This document shows positions 10,651 through 36,609 of a DNA stretch of 64,000 nt, one piece after another. The position numbers were made by a program, and so were the translations under genes. The stretch spans positions 1 to 64,000 of the forward strand of contig JABAZP010000008.1 in assembly GCA_018608405.1 (NCBI GenBank), in the 5' to 3' direction. Numbering within the stretch: position 1 is the stretch's first letter; every line of letters starts with the position of its first letter. This stretch comes from Flavobacteriales bacterium (lineage in GTDB: Bacteria > Bacteroidota > Bacteroidia > Flavobacteriales_E > Vicingaceae). The notes under the pieces were generated by a model. The model was given only the letters and a program-made list of their open reading frames with translations, searched no databases and was not told the origin of the DNA.

Positions 10651-10655
10651 CTTTG

Positions 10656-10727
10656 TAGCGGGAGCCAGACTCGAACTGACGATCTTCGGGTTATGAGCCC
10701 GACGAGATACCACTTCTCCATCCCGCA
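10656..10727 (-). tRNA. Initiator tRNA-fMet (CAT)
   Basis: A cloverleaf folds on the minus strand with anticodon CAT at 10693-10695. The anticodon stem has three G:C pairs next to the loop (GGGCTCATAACCC), and position 1 (T) does not pair with position 72 (T). Both are hallmarks of initiator tRNA. The D-stem is GAGA/TCTC and the T-arm GTCAG-TTCGAGT-CTGGC. The discriminator is A73; CCA is not encoded (CAA follows). It has its own promoter and terminator. Confidence 0.95.
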
Positions 10728-32101: not shown

Positions 32102-32137
32102 AAAAGCGCCATTTCGAGGCTTCGAAATGGCGCTTTT
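32102..32137. terminator. Bidirectional terminator between folA and clpX
   Basis: AAAAGCGCCATTTCGA, loop GGCT, TCGAAATGGCGCTTTT: 16-bp perfect stem for both converging genes. Confidence 0.9.
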
Positions 32138-32156: not shown

Positions 32157-33389
32157 TTAAGCCACCTTCAATTGCTTAAAGGCAGACTTATCGAACTTAT
32201 TTTTTGCATACTTTAAATCAATTCGAATCACCTTGTCAGCTGATTCCGTATCAGTAGGCATACTAAACATATGGTCAATTAAAATAGCCTCACAAATTGA
32301 ACGCAGGCCTCTCGCACCTAACTTGTATTCAATGGCTTTCTTAACGATGTAGTCCAACACCCCTTTGTCAAACTTTAATTCAAATCCATCCATTTCAAAC
32401 AGCTTTACGTACTGTTTTAAAATAGCATTCTTAGGCTCAGTCAAAATCCTTTTTAGCGCCTCCTCATTCAAAGGCTCTAAGTAGGTTACTACCGGTATTC
32501 TACCAATCAACTCTGGAATTAAACCGAACGAACGAATATCAGAAGGAATAACATAACGCAAGAAATCTTCTTTCTCAATCACTTCAGTTTCCGTTTTTGC
32601 TTTAAAACCCAAGGCGTTTGAATTCAATCGTTTTCCAATTACCTTTTCAATTCCCGAGAATGCTCCGCCACAAATGAACAGTATATTTTGGGTATTTATG
32701 GAAACTAACTTTTGCTCTGGGTGCTTACGTCCTCCTTGAGGTGGAACACTAACAGTTGAACCTTCCAACAACTTTAACAGTGCTTGTTGAACACCTTCAC
32801 CGGAAACGTCTCTCGTAATGGAAGGATTATCTCCTTTGCGTGCGATTTTATCTACCTCATCAATGAAAACAATTCCCTTTTCAGCTTTTGCTACATCATA
32901 ATCTGCTGCTTGCAGTAAACGCGACAAAATACTTTCTACATCTTCTCCAACGTAACCGGCCTCTGTCAATACAGTAGCATCTGCAATACAGAAAGGAACA
33001 TCTAATAATCGAGCAATGGTTTTAGCCAACAACGTTTTACCACTTCCTGTTTCTCCCACCAACATAATGTTGGACTTCTCTAACTCTATGTCTTTAATGG
33101 CAGCTCCCTTTACCACCCTTTTGTAGTGGTTATAGACCGCTACTGAAAGCACCTTCTTCGCAGCTTCTTGTCCAATCACATATTCGTCTAAGTGCTTCTT
33201 AATTTCAGCTGGTTTGTGAATAGTAATATTGAAGTCCTTCGCTGATGGCTTAATTTCTTCTTTCACTATTTCACCAGCCTGTACAATACAGTTATCACAA
33301 ATGTGACCTGTAATACCTGCAATTAAAACGTTCGTGTCTTTTTTATCTCGACCACAAAATGAACAGTGGATTTTATTCTTTTCACTCAT
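32157..33389 (-). CDS. clpX: ATP-dependent Clp protease ATP-binding subunit ClpX
   Basis: 410-residue AAA+ unfoldase that feeds substrates to ClpP. The N-terminal zinc-binding domain has C9, C12, C31 and C34. Walker A is GETGSGKT (111-118) and Walker [10 protein letters not shown] with D176 and E177. The pore-loop GYVGED and the ClpP-binding IGF-type loop region ([11 protein letters not shown] precedes the sensor domain) follow the family layout; the loop itself is not a perfect IGF here and was not pinned down. It lies 74 nt downstream of clpP, with an intervening hairpin that may lower its expression relative to clpP. Confidence 0.96.
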
Positions 33390-33404
33390 AAGCTAATTCT
33401 ATAG

Positions 33405-33443
33405 AAAAAATTAGCCCCGTCTCGAAAAACGGGACAGGGCTAA
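33405..33443 (-). terminator. Hairpin terminator or attenuator between clpP and clpX
   Basis: Minus strand: TTAGCCC, inner stem-loop CCCGTTTTTCGAGACGG, GGGCTAA, then six T. It would partly or wholly end clpP transcripts ahead of clpX; no separate clpX promoter is obvious in the 15 nt that remain. Confidence 0.7.
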
Positions 33444-33463
33444 ATTACGTGATTTTGTGCAAT

Positions 33464-34126
33464 TTATTTTCGAACCAATACTTCGTCAATCATACCGTAC
33501 TCTTTCGCTTCCGCAGAAGACATCCAATAATCTCGATCAGAATCCTTCTTAATTTTTTCAAACGGTTGCTTTGAGTGCTTTGCTATAATGTCATACAACT
33601 CATCTTTAATCTTAAGTACTTCTTTTAAAGCAATCTCCATATCTGAAGCCATACCTTGCGTTCCGGCTGATGGCTGGTGAATCATTACTCTTGAATGTGG
33701 CAACGCAGTTCTTTTTCCTTCAGCTCCTGCACACAATAAAACAGCTCCCATAGAAGCAGCCATACCTGTGCAAATTGTTGCTACATCGGGTGCAATGTAC
33801 TGCATGGTATCATAAATTCCCAGCCCTGCATATACTCCTCCTCCCGGAGAGTTTACATAAATCTGAATATCTTTCTTAGCATCTGCAGATTCCAAGAATA
33901 GCAGCTGTGCTTGAATTATATTGGCCATTTGATCGTTCACCCCTGTTCCTAAAAAGATGATTCGATCCATCATTAAACGTGAAAACACGTCCATTTGAGC
34001 AACATTCAAAGAACGCTCCTCAATAATATAAGGAGTCATTGATGCTTCAACGTAGTTTTCTACGTGCATGCTATTAATCCCTTGGTGCTTAGTAGCGTAT
34101 TTTTTAAATTCTTTTCCGAAATCCAT
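33464..34126 (-). CDS. clpP: ATP-dependent Clp protease proteolytic subunit
   Basis: 220-residue serine protease forming the tetradecameric Clp core. The catalytic triad is S125 (TGMAASMGAV), H150 (MIHQPS) and D199 (DSDRDYW), with the same spacing as in E. coli. The N-terminal part is about 28 residues longer than the processed E. coli enzyme, which fits a propeptide or axial-loop extension typical of Bacteroidota. It is 8 nt downstream of tig, and the order tig-clpP-clpX is the widespread chaperone-protease operon. Confidence 0.96.
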   Translation of the reverse strand: MDFGKEFKKYATKHQGINSMHVENYVEASMTPYIIEERSLNVAQMDVFSRLMMDRIIFLGTGVNDQMANIIQAQLLFLESADAKKDIQIYVNSPGGGVYAGLGIYDTMQYIAPDVATICTGMAASMGAVLLCAGAEGKRTALPHSRVMIHQPSAGTQGMASDMEIALKEVLKIKDELYDIIAKHSKQPFEKIKKDSDRDYWMSSAEAKEYGMIDEVLVRK

Positions 34127-34134
34127 AAAGTATG

Positions 34135-35493
34135 TTATTTAGTCCTCTTTTTCTCAGCTAATTTAACGAAATCGTCATAAGAAACTTCCTTCTCTTTGAC
34201 TTTCGCTGTTTCATTGTAAAACGCTCTTAGCTTAGTTGCATATAATTGCTCATATAACCGTCTAGCTTCGTCTTGGTTCTCTAAAACTCGATTTGCAGTT
34301 TCTTCCATTTCAGCTTCTTCCATCATATTGCCTCCCATTCCAGATAATTGCTGAGCAATTAATCCTTTGGTGTGAGCAACAACTTCATCTTTCGTAACCT
34401 CAATATTGTTGTCTTTGATGAGCTTATTTTCAATCAACTGCCATTTTAATCCCATTGCATATTGCTCGTATTCCGAATCAATTTGCTCTTTCGTAATTGG
34501 CTTTTCGTTAGCAGTCATTAACCACTTTTTCATGAACGAGTCAGGCAAATCTAATTTTGCTTTTTTAATCAAGTAGTCTTGAACATCTCTTTCAAACAAT
34601 TGCTCTGCATTTTGAGCGAAAGACGCTTCCATTTCTGCTCTCAACTTCTCCTCCATTTCAGCTTTCGATTTCACGTTATCTTTTCCGTAAATTTTATCGA
34701 AAAACTCTTGGTTTAATTCAGCAGCTTCCATTCTGTTTATTTTAGAAATGGCGTACTGAAATTCTGATATCTGGTCCTTTATGTATTGCTCATCAATTCC
34801 TAACCAAGCAGCTACATACTTAGCATCAGCAATGTCTTGTGGTTTTACTTTCACCACATCACCCACTACTTTGCCAATAAATTTCTTTTGATCCTTCTTA
34901 TCGTTGATTGTTCTGATGTTAACAACCGTTTCGTTCAAAATACCGCCCTCTTTAACGGTTTTACCGTCTAACTCTTCCCATTTTCCGAAAAGCATATCTT
35001 CCTCCTCAGATTTATCAGCCTCTCCCATTTTACCGTATCGCTTAGCAATTTCGGTAATCTGCTCGTCAATCATTTTCTGATTCGCCTTAATCTTCAATTT
35101 CTCAAACTTGTCTTTCTCAGTAATTTCGACTTTTACCTCTGGTGCTAAACCAATTTCATAGGTAAACGAAAAATCTTTTTGATTCTCCCAATCAATTGCA
35201 TCTGCATCTTCCTTTTTAGGAAGTGGGTTCCCAAGAACATCTAGCTTATTCTCGCTAATGAACTTGTATAAATTGTCGGAAAGGGTTTTGTTAATTTCAT
35301 CTACCAACAAGTTGGTTCCAACCATTTTTTTAACCATGCCCATTGGCACCATACCTTTTCTAAATCCAGGTAAGTTGGTTTGCTTGCGATGTCTTCTTAG
35401 TGCAGACTCTACCTTATCTTTGTAATCTGCTTCTTTAATGTTGATAGTAATTTCAGCGTTCAGCTTATCAATGTCTTTTTTAACTACTTCCAT
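34135..35493 (-). CDS. tig: Trigger factor
   Basis: 452-residue ribosome-bound chaperone. The N-terminal ribosome-binding domain shows the signature LPGFRKGMVP (about residue 40; compare GFRxGKxP), followed by a divergent central FKBP-like domain and a long helical C-terminal arm domain. The frame extends 54 nt further upstream into a hairpin and towards the tRNA-Leu gene; ATG 35493 (MEVVKKDIDKLNAEI) agrees with the family start. The sequence is typical of the divergent Bacteroidota trigger factors, which lack strong PPIase motifs. It leads the tig-clpP-clpX operon. A strong hairpin with a T-run sits only about 16 nt upstream of its ATG. Confidence 0.93.
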   Translation of the reverse strand: MEVVKKDIDKLNAEITINIKEADYKDKVESALRRHRKQTNLPGFRKGMVPMGMVKKMVGTNLLVDEINKTLSDNLYKFISENKLDVLGNPLPKKEDADAIDWENQKDFSFTYEIGLAPEVKVEITEKDKFEKLKIKANQKMIDEQITEIAKRYGKMGEADKSEEEDMLFGKWEELDGKTVKEGGILNETVVNIRTINDKKDQKKFIGKVVGDVVKVKPQDIADAKYVAAWLGIDEQYIKDQISEFQYAISKINRMEAAELNQEFFDKIYGKDNVKSKAEMEEKLRAEMEASFAQNAEQLFERDVQDYLIKKAKLDLPDSFMKKWLMTANEKPITKEQIDSEYEQYAMGLKWQLIENKLIKDNNIEVTKDEVVAHTKGLIAQQLSGMGGNMMEEAEMEETANRVLENQDEARRLYEQLYATKLRAFYNETAKVKEKEVSYDDFVKLAEKKRTK

Positions 35494-35508
35494 TGTAAAA
35501 TTTTGTTT

Positions 35509-35543
35509 AAAAAAAATGGCGTAAAACAAAAGCCTTACGCCAT
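35509..35543 (-). terminator. Terminator of tRNA-Leu directly in front of tig
   Basis: Minus strand: ATGGCGTAA, 10-nt loop, TTACGCCAT, then eight T. The T-run ends about 16 nt before the tig ATG, so tig must be reached by read-through or by a promoter that overlaps the tRNA or hairpin. Confidence 0.82.
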
Positions 35544-35548
35544 TCAAA

Positions 35549-35633
35549 TGGTGCGGATGGAGGGACTCGAACCCACACGCCGTGAAGCACTAGATCCTAA
35601 GTCTAGCATGTCTACCAATTTCATCACATCCGC
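35549..35633 (-). tRNA. tRNA-Leu (TAG)
   Basis: 85-nt class II tRNA on the minus strand with a perfect 7-bp acceptor stem (GCGGATG/CATCCGC), anticodon stem CTAGA/TCTAG and loop CTTAGGA (anticodon TAG at 35597-35599). It has a long variable arm, T-loop TTCGAGT, discriminator A and an encoded CCA end. It reads CUA/CUN codons. Confidence 0.95.
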
Positions 35634-35676
35634 TTTTCAATATAACCAAGAACTCAACCCAATTAATTGGGGAGGG

Positions 35677-35684
35677 CAAAAGTA
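35677..35684 (-). promoter_or_regulatory. -7 element of the tRNA-Leu promoter
   Basis: Minus strand TACTTTTG followed by CCCTCCCC, nearly the same as at the tRNA-fMet promoter (TACTTTTGTCCTCCC). A TTG at the usual -33 distance is not present. Confidence 0.55.
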
Positions 35685-35778
35685 CTAAATTTTCTAATAA
35701 ATGAGAAAAAGCAACTCTGCTTTCAACAATTTAAATTTCATTGAGGTTGTGTAATTTTCAATCTCTAAAAAACAGCTC

Positions 35779-36609
35779 ATGAAAATTAATCCGAAAGACG
35801 TCTCATTAGGTAAACTGCACAATACTTTACTTGGCTCTGTTGGTCCTAGACCAATAGCTTTTGCAAGTACTATTGATAAAAATGGCAACCGTAATTTAAG
35901 CCCATTTAGTTTCTTTAATGTATTCAGTGCAAACCCTCCTATTGCAATTTTTTCGCCTGCTAAAAGTGGCCGAACGAATACACAAAAGGATACCTATCAT
36001 AATGTGAAAGAGGTTGCTGAATGTGTCATAAACATTGTCAATTACCCAATTGTACAGCAAATGAGCCTTTCAAGCACCGCATATGGTCCTGAGGTAGATG
36101 AGTTTGTGAAAGCGGGATTAACACCAATTGAATCAGAAATGGTGCGCCCTTTTAGAGTGAAGGAGTCACCTGTTCAACTAGAGTGTATTGTAAAAGAAGT
36201 TGTTGAATTGGGCAATGAAGGTGGTGCCGGTAATTTGGTGATTTGTGAGGTAAAACTAATTCACATTGACGATACTATTTTAAACGAAGAAGGCATGATT
36301 GACCAAAATAAAATTGATTTGGTAGGCAGAATGGGTGGAGATTATTACGTGAGAGCAAGCGGTGCTTCTTTATTTGAGGTACCAAAACCAATTCGCCAAA
36401 AAGGAATTGGAGTAGACGCTTTGCCAGAAGCAATTAAAAACAGCACTATCTTAACCGGAAATGACCTCGGCATGTTGGGTAATGTTGAAGTGTTACCGGA
36501 AATAAATTCATCGAGTTTTTTAGAAAATTGGGAAGTGAAACAGAAAGCCGCTCAAAAAATGTTGAAAGATGCAAAGATTGAAGAAGCGTGGAAGGTGCTA
36601 GTGCGGTAA
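35779..36609 (+). CDS. Flavin reductase-like FMN-binding protein
   Basis: 276-residue protein of the flavin reductase-like domain superfamily (FMN-binding split barrel, DIM6/NTAB-type). The family pattern GPRPIAFASTIDKNGNRNLSP is at residues 22-42, followed by FSFFNVFSANPPIAIFSPA. These proteins bind FMN or reduce flavins with NAD(P)H, but the partner enzyme is often unknown; none is nearby. The C-terminal extension of about 70 residues is usual for Bacteroidota members. It is a single gene between the tRNA-Leu promoter and a T9SS cargo gene. Confidence 0.85.
   Translation: MKINPKDVSLGKLHNTLLGSVGPRPIAFASTIDKNGNRNLSPFSFFNVFSANPPIAIFSPAKSGRTNTQKDTYHNVKEVAECVINIVNYPIVQQMSLSSTAYGPEVDEFVKAGLTPIESEMVRPFRVKESPVQLECIVKEVVELGNEGGAGNLVICEVKLIHIDDTILNEEGMIDQNKIDLVGRMGGDYYVRASGASLFEVPKPIRQKGIGVDALPEAIKNSTILTGNDLGMLGNVEVLPEINSSSFLENWEVKQKAAQKMLKDAKIEEAWKVLVR

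Follow-up and report, generated by a model that had tools for sequence, protein, structure and literature searches.

The locus examined here raises the question of where transcription of tig, the gene of trigger factor, and of the clpP and clpX genes behind it begins: a hairpin closed by eight T lies directly before the tig start codon, and a tRNA-Leu gene lies directly before the hairpin. A sequence-only reading of this DNA had offered two answers, either that tig, clpP and clpX depend on read-through of the tRNA terminator from the tRNA-Leu promoter, or that a promoter is hidden within the tRNA gene. We have analysed the window, i.e. the whole stretch of 64,000 nucleotides that holds the locus, together with its source genome (a 2.6-Mb assembly in 38 contigs, 93% complete) and with tig loci of the same phylum.

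The survey comprised 145 tig loci, a non-random sample made up of 65 best matches and of 80 regions that were hand-picked from the listed matches to cover families. Other listed matches, for instance the partial ones of genomes G005, G305 and G309, were left out, and the surveyed loci are related to each other. The window's order was represented by 46 genomes, all of the window's family (f1). Starts of tig were set by script as the nearest in-frame start codon, and some of them are GTG or TTG.

Organisation of the locus

The tRNA gene, the hairpin and the three protein genes all lie on the minus strand (Table 1). The tRNA-Leu(UAG) gene is the single match for this tRNA in the source genome, the assembly of which is 93% complete. 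The sequence-only reading had named the promoter of tRNA-Leu as the next one upstream of tig, and this agrees with the sigma-A type box found there, from which transcription of the tRNA would be expected to start near 35672; no clear -33 element was seen upstream of the box. The expected tRNA-Leu leader opens with the palindrome CCCAATTAATTGGG (35658-35671, minus strand), directly behind the promoter.

The hairpin begins three bases past the tRNA and reads GAATGGCGTAAGGC-TTTT-GTTTTACGCCATTT, then T, in the terminator scan, the first three T of the T8 run being counted within its stem. The hairpin with eight T described earlier is real, and the gap between the T run and the tig ATG, which begins at 35493, is 15 nt and not 16. 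The operon likely ends at a strong hairpin that lies behind clpX and carries a T-rich tail.

Table 1. Features of the tRNA-Leu to clpX region, with positions in the window
Feature	Position	Strand	Evidence and remarks
tRNA-Leu promoter, TACTTTTG, sigma-A -7 box (TAnnTTTG)	35677..35684	(-)	read from sequence; upstream stretch 18.7 bits (matrix)
tRNA-Leu, anticodon UAG	35549..35633	(-)	ARAGORN tRNA-Leu(tag); Rfam RF00005, 56.5 bits at 35552-35633
Terminator-like hairpin, 14 pairs	35514..35545	(-)	terminator scan, fold; covariation in family
T8 run closing the putative terminator	35509..35516	(-)	read from sequence; 15 nt to tig ATG
tig, trigger factor	34135..35493	(-)	TIGR00115, 197.8 bits vs cut-off 180.2
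clpP	33464..34126	(-)	NCBIfam model over cut-off; 8 nt behind tig
Second hairpin, then T-rich stretch, behind degenerate -7 box TAATTTAG	33414..33435	(-)	clpP-clpX gap
clpX	32157..33389	(-)	NCBIfam model over cut-off; 74 nt behind clpP
Strong hairpin with T-rich tail behind clpX	32102..32137	(-)	script scan for terminator-like hairpins

The hairpin between tRNA-Leu and tig

With 14 pairs, five of them G-C, a loop of four and the T8 run, the hairpin has the form of an intrinsic (Rho-independent) terminator. The predicted fold energy is -18.5 kcal/mol, and the hairpin ranks 7th among the 19 terminator-like entries that the script found in the window, a list in which some hairpins figure on both strands and one entry figures twice. 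Terminator-like hairpins ending 24-42 nt behind the tRNA were found at 20 of the 30 tRNA loci read in the source genome, and several of the ten loci without one sit within tRNA clusters or at contig ends. Judged by these predictions, the hairpin before tig is the ordinary form of the putative tRNA terminators of this genome. At 10655-10727 (minus strand) a tRNA-Met gene has an identical promoter box, TACTTTTG, and a terminator of ordinary form; about 700 nt separate it from the next open reading frame of at least 90 amino acids on its strand.

The conservation in relatives for which the sequence-only reading had proposed to look is evident. A terminator-like hairpin is present in the tRNA-tig spacer of 61 of the 99 tRNA-bearing loci vs 7.8 expected from dinucleotide shuffles, that is in 33/40 loci of the window's family, 21/36 of the other families of the class and 7/23 of other classes, and spacers shorter than 40 nt (7/7) are without it. 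In an alignment of the window's family, the rows of which were picked for carrying the hairpin, a 13-pair stem is paired in 97.9% of the cells (23 of 37 distinct stretches), a figure that is flattering because 14 stretches were left out: those with no hairpin passing the script (L010, L011, L013, L014, L065 and L070), those with a different hairpin (L026 and L063) and near copies (L016, L019, L024, L025, L123 and L124). Six pairs of the stem are changed on both sides, which as a count is not unusual (82 of 500 shuffles reach six); the cells changed on both sides number 38 vs 14.6 in shuffles and 0-7 with the partner slid, which points to covariation of the stem in this family.

A conserved terminator ahead of a protein-quality operon has the form of an attenuator, and the hairpin might be a regulated one, in which a factor or an alternative fold shifts read-through with growth, heat or tRNA charging and tig and clpP respond. 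The tRNA and the terminator are, however, separate and compatible in the predicted fold, where no alternative pairing was noticed by eye, and several lineages are without the terminator; we regard regulated attenuation as quite improbable. A search of 33300-35900 with Rfam matched the tRNA as the sole family and gave no known sensor domain; a protein antiterminator is conceivable.

Linkage of tRNA-Leu(UAG) and tig in the phylum

On the same strand and at most 420 nt upstream of tig, tRNA-Leu(UAG) was found in 76 of the 108 loci of the window's class, which represent 18 of 29 families, and outside the class, within the same phylum, in 23 of 37 loci (12 of 23 families). All 40 examined loci of the window's family have it; family f27, whose 18 examined loci cluster with named Flavobacteriaceae on the tig tree, lacks it before tig in every one of them. 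The fewest changes in tRNA-Leu presence amount to 7 (FastTree, 145 tig proteins of the class), and the linkage probably predates the class, with several losses later. A tRNA gene that lies directly upstream on the same strand and is conserved there is one mark of a tRNA-headed mRNA operon, and this is the arrangement that the predicted genes display. At three loci (L072, L076 and L092) the tig start lies only 15-17 nt past the tRNA, without a terminator; a promoter would fit there only within the tRNA gene itself, and a shared transcript is thereby implied.

In family f44, which is outside the class (L103-L106, L108, L109 and L112), the tRNA-tig spacer is without a terminator-like hairpin. The spacer at these loci often holds CCTGTTTA or CCTGTTCA, and the tig start set by the script is GTG.

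Position of the promoter

The promoter box TAnnTTTG is placed at -12 to -5 in Flavobacterium psychrophilum (PMC9723704) and is also described in Bacteroides fragilis (PMC7366714). A scan for E. coli-type sigma-70 promoters, which gave 15 sites vs 16.4 expected, was set aside, the box of Bacteroidota being different.

Where the tRNA is present in the class, TAnnTTTG lies within 110 nt upstream of it in 69 of 76 loci and within the tRNA-tig spacer in one of 76 (L094, which has a spacer of 221 nt). Of the 32 loci that lack the tRNA, 31 carry the box within 160 nt ahead of tig, the exception (L071) having the near-box TAACTTCG before tig. Inside the tRNA gene itself the box was found in none of the 76 loci of the class and in none of all 99 tRNA-bearing loci, and it lies in the spacer of one of these 99. 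Among the seven of 76 tRNAs in the class without an exact upstream box, L046 and L082 have the near-box TATCTTCG or TACCTTCG, the upstream region of L123 is cut by a contig end, L011 has a weak box at -73, and L006, L012 and L058 have none within 75 nt. A second, named set (80 loci), which partly overlaps the first, gave a box upstream of 16 of 17 tRNAs, in the spacer of one of 17 (L156) and before 60 of 63 tRNA-less tig genes, with TACTTTCG before tig in one exception (L158) and no convincing box in L220 and L221. Shuffles lead one to expect chance boxes in 4.7 of 86 spacers; since the spacers are short and chance boxes few, it is the contrast between 69/76 and 31/32 that carries the weight. 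With the box before the tRNA when the tRNA is present and before tig when it is absent, the promoter of the operon appears to be that of the tRNA.

Scoring with a leave-family-out matrix, which was trained on stretches holding an exact TAnnTTTG box, gave median values of 16.3 bits for the stretch before the tRNA, 18.9 for that before tRNA-less tig and -2.9 for the tRNA plus spacer. In the window itself the best site in the tRNA plus spacer scores -2.9 bits vs 18.7 before the tRNA, and one tRNA-plus-spacer stretch out of 76, that of L094, exceeds the 10th percentile of promoter regions. Sites with one mismatch to TAnnTTTG were found in the tRNA plus spacer neither in the window nor in six of the eight nearest loci (L001-L008), with single sites in L003 and L008. 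A sigma-A promoter in the tRNA gene or the spacer was rejected on the exact box, on the matrix and on the one-mismatch sites in L001-L008, and the earlier suggestion of a promoter hidden in the tRNA gene finds no support for a promoter of this type. For the class, these predictions place a sigma-A promoter upstream of the tRNA and, apart from L094 and, in the named set, L156, none between tRNA and tig. The dependence of tig on the tRNA promoter that was proposed earlier is supported by this comparison as regards the promoter, while passage of the terminator is deduced from the arrangement of the sequence.

It could also be supposed that the terminator is essentially complete and that tig is transcribed from a promoter which escapes recognition (ECF, sigma-54 or a strongly degenerate sigma-A promoter) and is situated within the tRNA gene, the hairpin or the 15 nt that precede tig. 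The terminator looks strong, boxes can arise behind the tRNA, as L094 and L156 show, and for E. coli a promoter, P2, is described on the 3' side of metY (PMC6511841). The scarcity of exact and one-mismatch boxes in tRNA genes and spacers argues against such a promoter, however, as does the fact that the 15 nt before tig vary among close relatives, and we think it unlikely that tig is transcribed in this way.

Outside the window's class, 13 of 23 tRNAs have the box upstream and just one of 14 tRNA-less tig genes is preceded by it; the contrast between loci with and without the tRNA fails there. A tree-based sign test for loss of the tRNA together with gain of a promoter was not significant and is underpowered, with five supported independent pairs, of which on average 2.0 went in the expected direction, 0.5 in the opposite one and 2.5 showed no difference; the tree used was a FastTree tree with long branches meeting.

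The locus L156 has tRNA-Leu, the terminator and, before tig, the box TATATTTG, and on the tig tree it branches immediately outside the group without tRNA to which the Flavobacteriaceae belong. It is possible that L156 represents a stepping stone, in which tig gained a promoter prior to the loss of the tRNA. Against a simple story of this kind, L151, which has a box and no tRNA, branches still further out.

clpX and the clpP-clpX gap

The gap between clpP and clpX was surveyed in the 100 loci that yielded both genes. At the loci L001-L014 of the window's family, TAnnTTTG occurs in the gap in 9 of 14, mostly close before a hairpin (L009 is without one), and in the window and L002-L005 the degenerate TAATTTAG and then a hairpin precede clpX. 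These sequences suggest that in most close relatives clpX is probably served by its own promoter. The earlier claim that clpX, too, depends on read-through from the tRNA stands in part only, and the inclusion of clpX in a unit fed from the tRNA appears weaker than that of tig and clpP. The clpX mRNA may start with a stem-loop (33389-33463 of the window, minus strand; exact box and hairpin in close relatives).

A hairpin close behind the clpX promoter box, where it would be a structure at the 5' end, is present in most of L006-L014, and the pairing of the stem before tig is conserved. Both observations would fit a hairpin that mainly serves RNA processing or protection, protecting the tig mRNA at its 5' end or marking the 3' trailer of the tRNA for cleavage, while terminating little. 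T runs follow the hairpin as they do at the 20 of 30 tRNA loci of the source genome, though, and several lineages are without the hairpin; a main role of this kind seems to us improbable.

Relation to known operons

The closest known case is the E. coli metY-rimP-nusA-infB operon, for which PMC6511841 describes promoters P-1 and P0 before the tRNA, terminators t1 and t2 between the tRNA and rimP, and primary transcripts that join pre-tRNA and mRNA. Both arrangements have a tRNA first in a protein operon, promoters upstream and a terminator in between, the promoter and terminator of tRNA-Leu-tig being predicted ones. They differ in the tRNA and in the proteins encoded, and the same paper adds for E. 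coli the promoter P2 at the metY 3' side and RNase III sites. The factors encoded in the metY operon act on translation and termination, whereas trigger factor acts on folding.

E. coli also has a tRNA(Thr-Tyr-Gly-Thr)-tufB operon, and this type resembles tRNA-Leu-tig in that tRNA genes immediately precede a heavily used protein gene. The source genome contains a Thr-Tyr-Gly-Thr tRNA cluster (L232, minus strand) with the EF-Tu gene (257-1444) 55 nt behind tRNA-Thr(GGT). No TAnnTTTG was found between tRNA-Thr(GGT) and the EF-Tu gene, and no terminator-like hairpin within 70 nt behind the tRNA; this copy is thus unlike tRNA-Leu before tig in having no terminator found behind tRNA-Thr(GGT).

The gene order tig-clpP-clpX occurs in many bacteria and is the same here, and we know of no tRNA at the head of these genes in E. 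coli. A literature search (tRNA or tRNA-Leu with tig or clpP; tRNA-mRNA operons), which covered titles and abstract openings and had incomplete journal coverage, gave no description of tRNA-Leu-tig among the matches listed. As far as this search shows, tRNA-Leu-tig is a new case of a tRNA-headed protein operon.

Proposed transcription of the operon and its implications

Overall, we consider it likely that a single transcription unit comprises tRNA-Leu(UAG), tig and clpP. It would be driven by the sigma-A promoter ahead of the tRNA and fed by leakage of the terminator. Most transcripts would stop at the hairpin and T run and give the tRNA only, and a minority of polymerases would read through the putative terminator. 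The usual tRNA nucleases would then excise the tRNA and leave a tig-clpP(-clpX) mRNA, and in this manner the terminator would determine the amount of trigger factor and ClpP mRNA that accompanies each tRNA-Leu transcript. Part of the transcription of clpX would probably come from a promoter in the clpP-clpX gap. The sequences show the anatomy, its conservation and where the promoter lies with respect to the tRNA; we infer terminator activity, read-through, RNA processing and strength. The terminator looks strong, at 7th of 19 entries, and leakage has to be assumed. Promoters of stable RNAs are strong, and a leakage of a few per cent can thus suffice for a normal amount of mRNA; in its simplest form read-through would be passive leakage.

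More tentatively, and with some doubt on our part, it may be proposed that across the Bacteroidota the tRNA-Leu(UAG) terminator leaks and serves as a valve, fixed or regulated, that ties the supply of the ribosome-bound chaperone trigger factor and of ClpP to the output of the tRNA promoter and, as part of the same proposal, that lineages which have lost the tRNA (the Flavobacteriaceae, for example) have a distinct promoter for tig instead, perhaps gained with the tRNA still present (L156). If this is true, the capacity for folding and degradation would track the capacity for translation by linkage in cis.

A tRNA-mRNA operon would have been kept in many families of a phylum, with a putative terminator before a chaperone gene in most of the loci seen. 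An annotation of transcripts that ends at the predicted tRNA terminator would leave tig without a promoter, and the lineages in which the tRNA is lost and a promoter lies directly before tig may serve as a natural experiment on operon evolution. It thus becomes testable whether the levels of trigger factor and ClpP in Bacteroidota are set by transcription of a tRNA.
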